Shown piece by piece: positions 33,630 through 39,374 of a stretch of DNA of 39,374 nucleotides (the stretch's first letter is position 1; every line of letters begins with the position of its first letter). A program made the position numbers and the translations under genes. Below the pieces are notes generated by a model that saw only the letters and a list, made by a program, of their open reading frames with translations, was not told where the DNA came from and ran no database searches. Origin of the DNA: Acidimicrobiales bacterium (GTDB lineage Bacteria > Actinomycetota > Acidimicrobiia > Acidimicrobiales > MedAcidi-G1); contig JAERSW010000046.1 of the NCBI GenBank assembly GCA_016845305.1, positions 1-39,374 on the forward strand, given 5' to 3'.

Positions 33630-34757
33630 TCAGGCGTCGACGACGGCCAGGCCGTGGTCGATCCGGTTCATCGGGTCCGGCCCGTCGTCGGTGGCGACCA
33701 CGATGTCCTCGAGGCGCATCCCCCACCGGTCGGCCACGTAGATGCCCGGCTCGATGGAGAAGGCGTGTCCGGCGGCGAGCGGCAGGTCGTTGCCGGCCAC
33801 CAGGTTGGGGTGCTCGTGGGCCTCCACCCCGATGCCGTGCCCGAGCCGGTGGACGAAGAACTCGCCGTACCCGGCGTCGTCGAGCACCCGGCGGGCCACG
33901 GCGTCGACCTCGGCGCACGGCGTGCCCACCGTGGCCGCCGCCACCCCGGCCGCCTGCGAGGCGTGCAGGGCCTCGTAGGCCTCGGCGAACTCGGCCGGCG
34001 GCTCGCCGAGGTGGACGCACCGGGTGATGTCGGAGCAGTACCCCACCCCGTCGGCGCCGAACATCGTCCCGCCGATGTCGAACAGCACCGACTCGCCGGA
34101 GCGGAGCACCCGGTCGCCGGCCTCGTGGTGGGGGCTGGCCGCGTTCGGGCCCGAGGCCACGATGGTGAAGTTCACCCGGTGGTGGCCCTCGTCGACGATC
34201 CGACGGGCGATCTCGGCGGCCACGTCGGCCTCGGATCGCCCGACCAGCGGGACGTTCCCGGCCTGGACGTCGGCCAGGATCCGGTCGACAGCCGCTCCGG
34301 CTCGCCGCAGCACGTCGACCTCGGCGGCGTCCTTGACCATGCGGATGGGGGCGGTGACCGTCGACGCCCGGCTGAGCACGAGCCCGGGACGGGCGGCCAG
34401 CAGGTCGACGGCGAAGCCGGCCCACGCCTGGTCGCCGATGGCCGCCGTGACGTCGCCTCCCGGGCCACCGGCCCCGGCGGGCAACCGGTCGACCACGAGG
34501 CGGATCGGGTCCTCGCCGTCCCGCCAGGTGACCAGGTCGAAGACATCCGGGCGCTCCACCACCCGGGGCGCCTCGAGGTGGGGCACGACGAGGGTGGCGT
34601 CGCCGTCGCGGGGGACGACCAGCATGGTGAGCCGCTCCAGCGGCATGGCCTCGTAGCCGCAGAAGTAGGGCAGGTCGGCGCCAACCGACAGGAGGAGCAC
34701 GTCGACGCCCTCGTCGTCCATGTGGGCCCGAACCCGGGCCAGGCGGTCGGCGAACAC
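33630..34757 (-). CDS. M24 family metallopeptidase (Xaa-Pro dipeptidase/aminopeptidase-like)
   Basis: 375-residue cytosolic peptidase acting on peptides with proline at position 2, or a related creatinase-fold enzyme. All five pita-bread metal ligands are present and well spaced: Asp227 (FDIGG), Asp243 (CSDITR), His307 (HRLGHGIG), Glu336 (SIEPGIY) and Glu350 (MRLEDIV). Residues 1-150 form the usual N-terminal creatinase-like domain. GTG at 34757 has TAGCCT six bases upstream and no ribosome-binding site. PepQ/PepP-type activity is most likely from this family; exact specificity is open. Confidence 0.9.
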   Translation of the reverse strand: MFADRLARVRAHMDDEGVDVLLLSVGADLPYFCGYEAMPLERLTMLVVPRDGDATLVVPHLEAPRVVERPDVFDLVTWRDGEDPIRLVVDRLPAGAGGPGGDVTAAIGDQAWAGFAVDLLAARPGLVLSRASTVTAPIRMVKDAAEVDVLRRAGAAVDRILADVQAGNVPLVGRSEADVAAEIARRIVDEGHHRVNFTIVASGPNAASPHHEAGDRVLRSGESVLFDIGGTMFGADGVGYCSDITRCVHLGEPPAEFAEAYEALHASQAAGVAAATVGTPCAEVDAVARRVLDDAGYGEFFVHRLGHGIGVEAHEHPNLVAGNDLPLAAGHAFSIEPGIYVADRWGMRLEDIVVATDDGPDPMNRIDHGLAVVDA

Positions 34758-34763
34758 GGCGAC

Positions 34764-34769
34764 AGGCTA
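34764..34769 (-). promoter_or_regulatory. -10 element TAGCCT overlapping the lipB-lipA stop codon
   Basis: TAGCCT on the minus strand, six bases before the GTG at 34757. Its TAG is the stop codon of the LipB-LipA fusion gene (34767-34769), the second such arrangement in the window. Confidence 0.5.
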
Positions 34770-36455
34770 GGAGCCGACCCGCTGCCCCAGCGTCACCGGC
34801 ACGGCGCCACCCACCGCTTCGGCCGCGCTCCGGGCGTGGTGGCTGGACCGGGTCAGCGGCGACGCCTCCACATGGCCGATCCCTACTGCCCGACCCACGT
34901 CCCGCCACCTCTCGAAGGCGGCCGGCTCCACCCACCGTTCGACGGGCAGGTGGTTGGTGGTGGGACGCAGGTACTGGCCGATCGTCGCGATGTCGCAGCC
35001 CACGGCGGCCAGGTCGGCCAGGCAGCCGTCGACCTCGTCGTCGGTCTCGCCGAGGCCGACCATGATCGACGACTTGGTGGTCAGCCCGGCCGCCTTCGCC
35101 CGGGCCAGCACCGAGAGGCTGCGGGCGTAGCCGGCCGACGGGCGGACCCGCCGCTGCAGGCGGGCCACCGTCTCGACGTTGTGGTTCAGGACGTCGGGGC
35201 GGGCGTCGAAGATGGTGGCCAGGGCCGCCTCGTCACCCTTGCAGTCGGGGACCAGGACCTCCACCGCGGTGCCCGGACGGCGTCGGCGGATGGCGTGGAT
35301 GGTCGCCGCGAAGGCGCCGGCGCCGTGGTCGGCGAGGTCGTCGCGGGCCACGGCGGTGACCACGGCGTGGGCCAGGTCCATCTCGGCCACCGCGGCGGCC
35401 ACCCGTTCGGGCTCGCCGAGGTCGGGGGCGTCGGGCCGACGGGTGTCGACGAGGCAGAACCCGCAGGCCCGGGTACACCGCTCGCCGTTGATCATGAAGG
35501 TGGCGGTCCCGTCGTTCCAGCACTCGAAGACGTTGGGGCAGCCGGCCTCCTCGCACACCGTGACCAGGTCGCTGCTGCGCATCAGCGCCTTCAGTCGGCG
35601 GTATTCCGGGCCGGTGTCGAGCGGGACCCGCATCCACTCGGGCTTGCGTTCGACCGGTGGCACGTCGCCCGGTCCGGCCCCACGGCTGAACGGGGCCAGG
35701 TCCCCGTCGGGGGCGGCCCGCTCGACCGGCCGGGCGACGTCGGCCCGGTCGACCGGTCCGGCCGCCCACCGTTCAGAGGCCCGTGCCGCCACCCGGTCGA
35801 CCACCTCGGCCATCGACGCCCCGATCCCCTCGGCGGCCAGCGACGTGACCCCGTACTCGCTGATCCCGCACGGCACCATGCGGTCGAAGTGGTCGAGGTC
35901 GGGGTCGACGTTGAGGGCGAAGCCGTGCATGGTGCGGCTGCGGGTGAGCTTCACGCCGATGGCCGCCACCTTGCGGGGCCGGGGGCCGTCGGGCTCCACC
36001 CACACGCCCGGGTAGCGGCCGAGGCGACCCACGTCGGCGAGGCCCAGGTCGCGGCAGGCCGCCATCACCACCTCCTCGACGGCGTGGACGTAGGCGGCCG
36101 TGTCGGCCATGCCGCCGCCCCGCTTGCCCGGCAGGTGCAGCAGCGGGTAGCCGACGAGCTGCCCAGGCCCGTGGTACGTGACGTCGCCACCACGGTCGGC
36201 CCGCACCACCTCGGCGCCGATCTCCTCCGGCGGGGCGAGGAGGTTCGCCGGATCGCCGCTCAGCCCCAGCGTGTAGACGGCGTGGTGCTCGAGCAGCAGC
36301 AGGTGGTCCTGCGGCGACGACGCTTCCTCCCCGGCGCGCTCCCCGGCGGCCTCCCCGGCGTGGGCGTGGATCCCCCGCTGGAGGGCCAGGGCGTCCCGGT
36401 AGCGGACCCGCCCCAGCCACCGGACCCGGAACGGCCGTGGCGCCGAGTCGGTCAC
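34767..36455 (-). CDS. lipB-lipA: LipB-LipA fusion: octanoyltransferase joined to lipoyl synthase
   Basis: 562-residue protein containing two consecutive lipoate-pathway enzymes. Residues 1-230 are LipB: RGGDVTYHGPGQLVGYP (88-104), Lys162 in RKVAAIG and Cys196 in VPCGIS, the catalytic pair that moves octanoyl from acyl carrier protein to E2 lysines. Residues of about 270-562 are radical-SAM LipA: auxiliary cluster CX4CX5C (Cys301, 306, 312), radical-SAM CX3CX2C (Cys327, 331, 334), HNVET (425-429) and the C-terminal RSSHHA (536-541), which supplies the conserved Ser. A 40-residue Pro/Asp-rich linker joins them, and there is no stop or restart between. The GTG start overlaps the E2 gene stop by four bases (GTGA), so carrier substrate and modifying enzymes are coupled. 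Confidence 0.93.
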   Translation of the reverse strand: MTDSAPRPFRVRWLGRVRYRDALALQRGIHAHAGEAAGERAGEEASSPQDHLLLLEHHAVYTLGLSGDPANLLAPPEEIGAEVVRADRGGDVTYHGPGQLVGYPLLHLPGKRGGGMADTAAYVHAVEEVVMAACRDLGLADVGRLGRYPGVWVEPDGPRPRKVAAIGVKLTRSRTMHGFALNVDPDLDHFDRMVPCGISEYGVTSLAAEGIGASMAEVVDRVAARASERWAAGPVDRADVARPVERAAPDGDLAPFSRGAGPGDVPPVERKPEWMRVPLDTGPEYRRLKALMRSSDLVTVCEEAGCPNVFECWNDGTATFMINGERCTRACGFCLVDTRRPDAPDLGEPERVAAAVAEMDLAHAVVTAVARDDLADHGAGAFAATIHAIRRRRPGTAVEVLVPDCKGDEAALATIFDARPDVLNHNVETVARLQRRVRPSAGYARSLSVLARAKAAGLTTKSSIMVGLGETDDEVDGCLADLAAVGCDIATIGQYLRPTTNHLPVERWVEPAAFERWRDVGRAVGIGHVEASPLTRSSHHARSAAEAVGGAVPVTLGQRVGS

Positions 36456-37705
36456 GCGTCCCGGCCGGCAGCCCAGCGGGCCGCCCAGTCCGAGTCCTCG
36501 ATCGACCGCTTCAACGCCCGCAGGAAGGCCGCCGCGTAGGCACCGTCGAACGCCCGGTGGTCCCAGGCCAGGGCCAGGACGCCCATCGTCCGGATGGCCA
36601 TCGCCTCGTTCCCGTCGTCGTCGACCACGACGGCCGGGCGACGGGCGATCCCGTCGGTGGACAGGATGGCCACCTGGGGCTGGTTGATGATCGGGAACTG
36701 GAACAGCGTCCCGTACTGGCCCGGGTTGGTGACCGTGAAGGTGCCGCCCGACAGGTCGTCCGGGGACAGCGACCGGCCGCGGGCCCGCGTCGCCACGTCG
36801 ACGACCGAACGGGCCACGTCCTGGATCGTCCGGCCCTCGACGCCGCGGACCACCGGCGCCACCAGCCCCTCGAAGTCCAGGTCGACGGCGACGGCCAGGT
36901 TGACGGTGCCGTGGACGACCAGCTCGTCATCGCCCACCGAGGCGTTGAGGCGGGGGAACTCGGCCAGGGCGTCGCACAGGGCGGCCACGATGAACGGCAG
37001 GTGGGTGAGGCTCGTCCCCTCGGCGTCGCGCCACGCCGCCCGCTCGGCGAGGCGGACCTCGTCGACGGCCGTGTAGTCGACCTCCATGGCGGTCAGCACG
37101 TGGGGCGAGGTGGCCTTCGACGCGACCATGTGGCGGGCCGTGGCCCGACGGATCCCGTTGAACGGCTCGGCCGTCCCCGGGTTGTCGCGCAGGAAGCGCT
37201 CGACGTCGGCCCGCGTGATGCGCCCGGCCATGCCCGTGCCCGTGACCCGTGCCGGATCCACCCCCCGCTCGGCCAGCAGCTTGCGCACCACCGGCGAGAC
37301 CAGCTTCCCACTCCCCGACCGGGGGGCCCGTTGCCTGCCTCCTCCGGCCGGGTCAGCACCCGGGGGCTCCGCCGCTCCGCCCGCCGCAGCGGGCGCGATG
37401 GCGTCGGTCGACTCGGCGTCGCCCCCGTGCTGGTCGGCGACGGGAGACGAGTGGGGCGGTGGCGCGGAACCGGATGGGTCGATGCGGCACAGGAGGGCGC
37501 CCACGTCGACGGTGGCGCCCTCGGGGGCGACGACCTCGACGAGGGTCCCCCCGACGGGAGCGGGCACCTCGGAGTCGACCTTGTCGGTCGACACCTCGTA
37601 CAGCGGCTGGCCCTCGACGACGGTCCCGCCCACGCCGACGAACCACTGGGTGATGATGCCCTCGGTGACCGTCTCGCCGAGTTGCGGGAGGTGGACGTCG
37701 GCCAT
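36452..37705 (-). CDS. Dihydrolipoamide acyltransferase (E2) of a 2-oxoacid dehydrogenase complex
   Basis: 417-residue E2 subunit. Residues 1-78 form a single lipoyl domain with the modified Lys42 in STDKVDSE. An Ala/Pro/Gly linker (about 80-130) follows, then a peripheral-subunit-binding domain (SPVVRKLLAERGVDPARVTG), and the acyltransferase domain with the catalytic DHRAFDG (His383, Asp387). In Mycobacterium the equivalent dlaT/sucB is also beside lipB and lipA. Whether it serves pyruvate, 2-oxoglutarate or branched-chain dehydrogenase cannot be decided. ATG at 37705 has GGAG upstream and lies 13 bases after the lpdA stop. Confidence 0.92.
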   Translation of the reverse strand: MADVHLPQLGETVTEGIITQWFVGVGGTVVEGQPLYEVSTDKVDSEVPAPVGGTLVEVVAPEGATVDVGALLCRIDPSGSAPPPHSSPVADQHGGDAESTDAIAPAAAGGAAEPPGADPAGGGRQRAPRSGSGKLVSPVVRKLLAERGVDPARVTGTGMAGRITRADVERFLRDNPGTAEPFNGIRRATARHMVASKATSPHVLTAMEVDYTAVDEVRLAERAAWRDAEGTSLTHLPFIVAALCDALAEFPRLNASVGDDELVVHGTVNLAVAVDLDFEGLVAPVVRGVEGRTIQDVARSVVDVATRARGRSLSPDDLSGGTFTVTNPGQYGTLFQFPIINQPQVAILSTDGIARRPAVVVDDDGNEAMAIRTMGVLALAWDHRAFDGAYAAAFLRALKRSIEDSDWAARWAAGRDA

Positions 37706-37718
37706 GGCGGTGCTCCGA

Positions 37719-39191
37719 TCAGCCGTGGAGGGATCGGCCGGTCAGCGACAGGACCGTCTCGCCGAACAGCTCGCTGAGCGTCGGGTGGGGTTGGATGAAC
37801 GCCGCCACCTCGTCGACGGTGGCCTCCCAGTTGACGGCCAGGTAGCCCTGCCCGAGCTGCTCGGTGACCCACGGGCCGACCAGGTGGACGCCGAGGATCC
37901 GTCCGGCCCGCCCGTCGGGGTCCTTCTCGGCCACCACCTTCACCAGGCCGTCGACCTCGCCGAGGATCATGGCCCGGCCGTTGCCGGCGAAACGGTGGCT
38001 GGACACCACGACGTCGTGGCCAGCCTCGATCGCCGCCGCCTCGGTCAGGCCGGCGAAGGCCACCTCGGGGTGGCTGTAGATGCACCACGGGACGGTGGCG
38101 GGGTCCAGCGGGGCGGGCGACTCGCCGAGCAGGTCGCGCACCACGAACATGCCCTCGGCGAAGCCCACGTGGGCCAACTGCGGGGTGTCGACCACGTCGC
38201 CGACGGCGTACACGCCGTGCTCGCCGGTCCGCAGCCGGTCGTCGACCTCGACGAAGCCCCGGTCGTCGACGACCACCCGGGTGCCGACGAGGCCGGCCGA
38301 GTCGCCGCGTGGACGGCGCCCCACGGCCACCACCACCAGGTCGACGGCGAGCTCCGTGCCCTCGCCGTCGCCGCCACCGGCCGGTCCGTACCGGACGGTG
38401 GTCCCGTTCTCGCCGGGCTGGTGGCCGGCGACGGCCACCCCGGAGTGGACGTCGATCCTCCGCTTCCGGAAGGACCGCCGGACGGCCTTGGCGGCGTCGG
38501 CGTCGCAGCCGGGGAGGATCTCGGGTGCCGCCTCGAGCAGGGTCACCGTCGAGCCGTAGTCGGCCAACATCGATGCGAACTCGCAGCCGATGGCGCCCCC
38601 ACCGATGACGGCCACCCGGTCGGGCACCTCGTCCAGGGACAGGACCTCGTCGCTGGTCATGACGAGGGTCCCGTCGACCTCGAAGCCGGGGATGGTCCGG
38701 GGCGAGGAGCCGGTGGCCAGCACGACGTGCTCGGACACCACGAGCGTCGGGTCGCCAGCACCGTGGTCGATGGAGACCACGTGGGCGGCACCCAGCCGGC
38801 CGGTGCCGTCGTAGACGGTGACCTCGCGGCCGGCCAGCAGGGACGCCACGCCGCGGGCCAGGCCGTCGATCACCTTCTGCTTGCGGGCCTGGCTGGCGGC
38901 CAGGTCGACGACGGGCTCCAGGGCGCCACCGTCGACGGCGCCGACGCCGAACTCCGCCGCGTCCTGGACGGTCCGGAGCACCGCCGCGGTCTCCAGGAGC
39001 TCCTTGGCCGGGATACAGCCCACGTGGAGGCAGGTGCCGCCGAGGAGGTGCTCCTCGACGAGGGCCACGTCGAGGCCGGACGCCGCGCCGTAGAGGGCCG
39101 CCGCGTAGCCGGCGGGGCCGCCGCCGATGACCACCAGGTCGTGCTGGACCAGCGACGACCCGCCGAGCGCGGCGACGTTCGGCCGGGCCAT
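37719..39191 (-). CDS. lpdA: Dihydrolipoamide dehydrogenase (E3)
   Basis: 490-residue flavoprotein that reoxidises the lipoyl arm of E2 with NAD. FAD-binding VIGGGPAGYAAALYG (21-35), redox-active disulfide GGTCLHVGCIPAK (Cys54, Cys59), NAD-binding VIGGGAIGCEFASML, and the C-terminal dimer-interface PHPTLSE (His-Glu pair) are all present. About 15 residues precede the FAD domain. The ATG at 39191 shares its A with the stop codon of a 28-codon membrane peptide gene (TGATG), so translation is coupled to it. First enzyme of the lpdA-E2-lipBA operon. Confidence 0.95.
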   Translation of the reverse strand: MARPNVAALGGSSLVQHDLVVIGGGPAGYAAALYGAASGLDVALVEEHLLGGTCLHVGCIPAKELLETAAVLRTVQDAAEFGVGAVDGGALEPVVDLAASQARKQKVIDGLARGVASLLAGREVTVYDGTGRLGAAHVVSIDHGAGDPTLVVSEHVVLATGSSPRTIPGFEVDGTLVMTSDEVLSLDEVPDRVAVIGGGAIGCEFASMLADYGSTVTLLEAAPEILPGCDADAAKAVRRSFRKRRIDVHSGVAVAGHQPGENGTTVRYGPAGGGDGEGTELAVDLVVVAVGRRPRGDSAGLVGTRVVVDDRGFVEVDDRLRTGEHGVYAVGDVVDTPQLAHVGFAEGMFVVRDLLGESPAPLDPATVPWCIYSHPEVAFAGLTEAAAIEAGHDVVVSSHRFAGNGRAMILGEVDGLVKVVAEKDPDGRAGRILGVHLVGPWVTEQLGQGYLAVNWEATVDEVAAFIQPHPTLSELFGETVLSLTGRSLHG

Positions 39192-39277
39192 CAGGCGACC
39201 AGCACCTGCACGGTGAAGGCCACCAGCAGCGCCATCCCGCACAGCAGGGCCGAGACGATCAGCATCCGCGTACTCAC
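39191..39277 (-). CDS. 28-residue single-pass membrane peptide, leader gene of lpdA operon
   Basis: Very short gene: GTG at 39277, TGA at 39193-39191, product 28 residues with a basic start (MSTR) and one hydrophobic segment (roughly residues 5-27, MLIVSALL to VQVLVA). Support for it being real: TACCGT lies six bases before the GTG, matching the leaderless start pattern of other operon heads here; the stop overlaps the lpdA ATG (TGATG); and no better start or ribosome-binding site precedes lpdA itself. Predicted to sit in the membrane and perhaps to couple or localise the E3 enzyme, or only to serve as a translational entry point; function unknown. Confidence 0.6.
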   Translation of the reverse strand: MSTRMLIVSALLCGMALLVAFTVQVLVA

Positions 39278-39283
39278 GTTCCG

Positions 39284-39289
39284 ACGGTA
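39284..39289 (-). promoter_or_regulatory. -10 element TACCGT for the lpdA operon
   Basis: TACCGT on the minus strand, six bases before the GTG at 39277, divergent to TACCCT at 39297-39302. Confidence 0.5.
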
Positions 39290-39296
39290 GCCCGCG

Positions 39297-39302
39297 TACC
39301 CT
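39297..39302 (+). promoter_or_regulatory. -10 candidate TACCCT for the right-edge gene
   Basis: TACCCT nine bases before the ATG at 39312 on the plus strand. Short-leader or leaderless start likely. Confidence 0.4.
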
Positions 39303-39311
39303 CAACGGCGC

Positions 39312-39374
39312 ATGGCCCATTCCCCTCGGCTCACCCCCATCGCCACGGCCCTCGCCGCCCTCACCCTCCTCCTC
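39312..39374 (+). CDS. Start of an exported protein (partial, cut by window edge)
   Basis: ATG at 39312 opens a frame of 21 codons to the end of the window, beginning MAHSPRLTPIATALAALTLLL (the product continues). A short polar N-region with one Arg and a Leu/Ala-rich hydrophobic core looks like a signal peptide or membrane anchor. Nothing further can be said from 21 residues. Divergent from the lpdA operon, with two -10 candidates facing apart in the 34-base gap. Confidence 0.5.
   Translation, partial: MAHSPRLTPIATALAALTLLL

Follow-up and report, generated by a model that had tools for sequence, protein, structure and literature searches.

One gene on the minus strand of the stretch of DNA analysed here (39,374 nucleotides; the window) encodes LipB octanoyltransferase and LipA lipoyl synthase in a single chain. 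We read its product as a bifunctional octanoyltransferase-lipoyl synthase, that is, a real fusion of two active domains (probability roughly 0.88); this reading leaves coupling between the domains open. That the fusion itself is genuine is practically certain. The open reading frame (34767-36455, minus strand, as for all features of this gene and its upstream neighbours given below) starts with GTG and contains 562 codons and a stop codon. There is no internal stop, and LipB is followed by LipA in the same frame. The LipB half comprises residues 1-225 (35781-36455), the linker about 43 residues (226-268; 35652-35780) and the LipA half residues 269-562 (34770-35651). Pfam assigned LplA-B_cat to residues 19-224, LIAS_N to 270-306 and Radical_SAM to 325-478. 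The LipB half passes the cut-offs of both PF21948 in Pfam (126.1 bits versus 27) and TIGR00214 in NCBIfam (134.8 bits versus 83.55), and the LipA half passes that of TIGR00510 in NCBIfam (342.5 bits versus 310.25).

The catalytic residues that the earlier note had listed are all in place. The LipB dyad consists of K162 (35970-35972) and C196 (35868-35870); in Escherichia coli, the corresponding dyad is C169/K135 (excerpt of PMC9307952). In the LipA half, the auxiliary cluster motif CX4CX5C is formed by C301, C306 and C312 (35520-35555) and the radical-SAM motif CX3CX2C by C327, C331 and C334 (35454-35477). Both the dyad and the two cysteine motifs are invariant in all 243 aligned fused proteins. 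The serine motif that belongs to the auxiliary cluster is found as RSSHHA at residues 536-541 (34833-34850), and a role of the auxiliary-cluster serine has been described for human LIAS (excerpt of PMC12246082). The RSS motif is present in 234 of the 243 aligned proteins (it is gapped in eight and contains an unreadable residue in one), and S537 is kept in 235, the remaining eight being gaps. Both domains are very probably active.

We then asked how far the fusion extends. Searches at three levels covered 48 genomes in the family, 118 in the order and 119 in the class, which together are 262 different genomes. LipB or LipA matches were found in 244 of them and were absent from 18. In 242 of the 244 matching genomes, LipB and LipA lie in a single stop-free frame; this result rests on open reading frames and a profile scan of the genome DNA (238 genomes, then four more). 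The two exceptions, G099 and G243, have loci that are truncated where their contigs end. Thus, the natural 562-residue fusion proposed in the earlier note holds, with both families above their cut-offs in one frame, and a search for the same domain order in relatives, where two separate genes would have spoken against it, returned fused genes and these two contig-end fragments. Some side observations concern individual class genomes. In eight genomes of one small-genome genus (G011-G018, code g4), the LipB/LipA match is absent in six, one of which is 94% complete; this absence reflects either missing contigs or a loss of lipoate synthesis. Two genomes, G204 (L179) and G005 (L255), possess separate LipB and LipA copies on contigs of 5 kb and 25 kb besides the fusion, and these are either second copies or contamination.

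Outside the class, the fusion was found in none of the 59 genomes of the phylum that were read at sequence level from among the matches listed. Of these 59 loci, 45 hold lipB and lipA as separate genes and 14 hold LipA alone, in agreement with the statement of the earlier note that the two genes are separate in most bacteria. The 59 genomes were made up of 23 and 36, and 35 of the latter had been chosen for the length of the open frame that contains LipA (about 490 amino acids or more). Several candidates for an independent fusion were rejected. In G333 and G293 the LipA and LipB open frames have equal lengths, and in G513 one match spanned both halves, yet inspection revealed separate genes in all three; the 35 further loci with long-frame LipA were likewise not fused at sequence level. 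Among 59 loci with named sources, 12 are fused (L058-L069). These fused relatives come from metagenome-assembled genomes of Acidimicrobiia and other actinobacteria, and their titles are Acidimicrobiaceae, Acidimicrobiales, Acidimicrobiia or Candidatus Microthrix, or the unspecific actinobacterium, Actinomycetota and Actinomycetes. The Nesterenkonia, Arthrobacter and Nanopelagicales loci among these 59 are not fused, and in one Acidimicrobiaceae locus (L071), which lies right where its contig begins, LipA is present without LipB. A plasmid collection contained two joined places with at least 80% query coverage. For one, from Pseudomonas, the annotation gives lipA and lipB as two genes, and the other, from Aeromonas, carries no annotation. 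As a separate observation, a contig titled as a Klebsiella pneumoniae metagenome-assembled genome (L104) contains adjacent, separate lipB and lipA genes, the best segment of which is 51% identical to the query; the title may be wrong.

The fusion is old and is inherited across the class Acidimicrobiia of Actinomycetota (the class being taken from the names of relatives). A tree of concatenated LipB and LipA sequences, with 35 rows for fused and 23 for separate proteins, contains a branch (support 96) that has all of the fused rows on one side. Rows L177_S and L275_F were dropped from this tree because the LipA-only tree had flagged them as long branches. In the LipA-only tree itself (36 fused and 24 separate rows), the fused label changes twice, via weak branches. 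Both trees were built by a quick method from a sample, and a position on one side of a branch leaves the root unplaced. Because the fused rows lie together, the simplest reading is that the fusion arose once.

The gene order in the window is E3-E2-lipBA. Upstream of the fusion lies the gene for a dihydrolipoamide acyltransferase (E2) with one lipoyl domain (36452-37705), and upstream of E2 lies that for a dihydrolipoyl dehydrogenase (E3; 37719-39320; TIGR01350, 448.5 bits versus a cut-off of 408.8), for which alternative starts are possible. The E2 gene ends in GCGTGA and the fused gene begins with GTGACC; therefore, the four nucleotides 36452-36455, which include the E2 stop codon, belong to both, and the overlap reported in the earlier note is correct. 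For 98 fused loci, the sequence extends 700 nt or more upstream of LipB, and an E2 gene is located there in 93 of them; 147 fused loci with less than 700 nt were left out of this count. In 82 of those 93, the E2 stop codon is within 30 nt of the start of the LipB profile. Among separate-gene loci with enough upstream sequence, an E2 gene precedes in 5 of 51. The E2 in the window scores 344 bits against SucB_Actino, below the cut-off of 423. Directly downstream of the fusion, Pfam identified an M24-family peptidase (33630-34757), and 69 of those 98 fused loci have a homologue on the same strand.

The source assembly, a draft in 136 contigs, is 98% complete. It contains one LipA above the cut-off, one full-length LipB and one GcvH, as well as two lipoyl-type domains (that of the E2 in the window and one at C39:87056) and three biotin-type domains. 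The fusion probably serves three carriers in this organism. A second open reading frame with the LplA/LipB fold (L145:1333-2454, minus strand) scores 42.7 bits against PF21948, and its sole NCBIfam match is a weak one to LplAB; it perhaps encodes a lipoate scavenger.

The linker of the window's protein is not featureless: it carries a DLxxFSRGxG-type motif that the earlier note had overlooked. The two domain profiles are 42 residues apart here and 21 to 174 residues apart (median 56) across 254 fused loci, a set that includes copies of the same genes. Two linker stretches are conserved, D-R-x-D-V-x-W and then D-L-x-x-F-[ST]-R-G-x-G. By column conservation, the latter corresponds to DLAPFSRGAGPG at residues 252-263 (35667-35702) in the window's protein, in which the W of DVAW is replaced by R. 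The DLxxFSRGxG motif is seen in about half of the genomes, in many families of the class. In other families, a third element, R-L-L-G-R-L-x-x-A-G, lies ahead of LipA and is a predicted helix in L066; it is absent from the family of the window's organism (0 of 34). When strict patterns were applied to 238 linkers, F[STAV]RG occurred in 115, RLxGRLxxAG in 70, both in 36 and neither in 89. Outside the linkers, F[STAV]RG was found at only 2 sites in a total of 133,126 residues. A linker profile matched 172 fused loci with E below 1e-3, which is partly circular because the profile was built from the fused set. At this threshold, neither LipB nor LipA proteins that stand alone were matched by the profile, and the one non-fused match, L190, is a contig-end fragment of a class genome. 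The dN/dS ratio of the linker was 0.191 versus 0.105 for LipB and 0.125 for LipA (55 close pairs, all from one family and with shared sequences). On the evidence of the sequences, the linker is protein-coding in the fused frame and under selection.

AlphaFold models were obtained for the window's protein (mean pLDDT 88.7, pTM 0.88) and for the fused protein of L066 (mean pLDDT 87.9, pTM 0.86); in both, part of the linker falls below 50. With two domains of this size (about 225 and 290 residues), pTM values as high as these would suggest a confident relative placement, and the models suggest that LipB and LipA take up a defined arrangement. Comparison with solved structures gave a target TM-score of 0.93 and 52% identity between the LipA half and Mycobacterium tuberculosis LipA (5exk), and 0.83 and 45% between the LipB half and M. 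tuberculosis LipB (1w66). None of the 8 solved sequences matched covers both halves. The belt that human LIAS wraps around the lipoyl carrier H protein consists of residues 66-110 (excerpt of PMC12246082). In the structural alignment, residue 264 of the model lies opposite LIAS residue 69; the linker would therefore lead into the carrier-binding belt of LipA.

It can be imagined that two products arise from this one frame, LipA being made additionally from an internal start (GTG265) or being released by proteolysis of the linker. The earlier note had described the linker as having neither a stop nor an internal start signal. The absence of a stop is correct. The claim about starts was too strong: two codons that could serve as starts are in frame, GTG at codon 265 (35661-35663), ahead of LipA, and ATG at codon 275 (35631-35633), which already falls within the LipA profile. 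A scan of the linker starts found no Shine-Dalgarno 4-mer before GTG265, and this codon is probably unused as a start. Two observations favor two products: the linker is poorly ordered in the models, and 218 of 245 fused loci have a start codon of some kind no more than 30 codons away from LipA. However, the position of such a start is not conserved, since V240 (41%) and M275 (65%, inside LipA) are the sole positions to exceed 14% of rows. Moreover, a Shine-Dalgarno 5-mer stands at a linker start in 13 of the 245 fused loci, as compared with 35 of 80 standalone LipA genes. At the level of individual codons, the 5-mer is similarly frequent before linker start codons (2.1% of 703) and before start-like codons inside the domains (1.7% of 8169); in the same two sets, the 4-mer shows a slight excess at linker starts (13.1% versus 8.9%). 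Selection on the linker in the fused frame also argues against separate products, and we regard them as improbable. Still less probable, to the point of being negligible, is a sequencing or assembly error in the linker, concealing both the end of one gene and the start codon of the next. The draft state of the source assembly could allow such an error. However, because the same fused frame is found in 242 of the 244 matching class genomes, including the single-contig assemblies G053, G049 and G078, chance or error can be excluded.

The main rival to coupling accepts the fusion and denies it a catalytic benefit: the stop between adjacent lipB and lipA genes would have been lost in the ancestor of the class, and the resulting protein would have been kept because it does no harm and fixes a 1:1 ratio of the two enzymes. 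In many outside-class genomes, lipB and lipA are neighbors (both are present, separately, in 45 of the 59 loci read), and the wide spread of linker lengths also fits this explanation. On the other hand, the fusion has been retained almost throughout the matching class genomes, elements of the linker are conserved and the pTM values are high. We place this neutral origin a little short of even odds. Coupling beyond co-expression has, in our estimate, about an even chance.

For the bifunctional enzyme that we prefer, the course of the reaction can be proposed as follows. The LipB half would transfer octanoate from octanoyl-ACP via C196 and K162 to the lipoyl-domain lysine of E2 or GcvH, and the LipA half of the same chain would add two sulfur atoms, drawn from its auxiliary cluster, to the octanoyl-lysine at C6 and C8. 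Translation is probably coupled to that of E2 via the GTGA overlap, by which the enzyme and one of its substrates would be produced together and in matched amounts. The E2 context is not special to catalysis and may serve expression alone. In the models, the domains probably adopt a defined arrangement with the linker entering the N-terminal, carrier-gripping belt of LipA, and this arrangement would raise the odds that a fresh octanoylated carrier meets LipA before leaving. Direct hand-over of octanoylated E2 to the sulfur-inserting site, as envisaged in the earlier note, is plausible as a mechanism. However, because the linker varies from 21 to 174 residues, lacks both elements in 89 of 238 cases and is poorly defined in the models, the precise geometry may not matter. 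A more ambitious version, in which the fusion is an obligate class-wide machine with a fixed arrangement, a class-specific linker element (DLxxFSRGxG, in other families RLLGRLxxAG) that helps to steer the carrier from one active site to the other, and E2-coupled translation, all amounting to channelling, is a tentative idea that we consider less likely than not. If true, lipoate assembly would include the channelling of an intermediate bound to a protein, for which we found no description in the literature searched.

LipB and then LipA modify one and the same lysine of the carrier. As long as the two enzymes are separate proteins, it is difficult to test whether the carrier, once octanoylated, is passed on directly or set free between these steps. 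The class-wide natural fusion offers a single-chain system for this question and for a structure with two active sites. In addition, the fusion provides a simple means of recognizing the class, as it is present in 242 of 244 matching class genomes and in 0 of the 59 outside-class genomes read. Such genes may be annotated as one of the two enzymes alone; presumably, UniProt automatically labels some of the proteins as a multifunctional fusion. We found no paper on a LipB-LipA fusion in the openly accessible literature searched, and the two members scanned against NCBIfam release 20.0 matched no LipB-LipA fusion model. The enzymes are already known, and their joint architecture, which we did not find described, is fixed across the class.

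Several known systems can be compared with this protein. The two-step pathway and the lipBA operon have been described (excerpt of PMC4398509). In the operon of Shewanella and E. coli, lipB likewise stands before lipA, and from its families the fusion is expected to carry out the same two reactions in the same order; however, the operon consists of two genes that encode two proteins, whereas here a single chain contains a conserved linker. Likewise, each half of the fusion has the same fold as its M. tuberculosis counterpart (1w66 and 5exk), and those were solved as separate proteins. Gene fusion within the same enzyme superfamily has also produced the Lpl(AB) and Lpl(BA) lipoate:protein ligases (PMC10332631), and the excerpted text of that paper, which deals with the evolution of lipoate assembly, contains no mention of a LipB-LipA fusion. 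These ligases unite catalytic and accessory domains of the ligase without a lipoyl synthase, whereas LipB and LipA are joined here. A related arrangement is that of NF053790 (bifunctional lipoate--protein ligase/lipoyl synthase), in which an acyl-attaching enzyme also stands ahead of LipA. The fused protein misses the cut-off of 800 for this family, with 345.4 bits that come from its LipA part alone (residues 266-543 aligned). The N-terminal part of NF053790 is LplA, whereas that of the protein described here is LipB.
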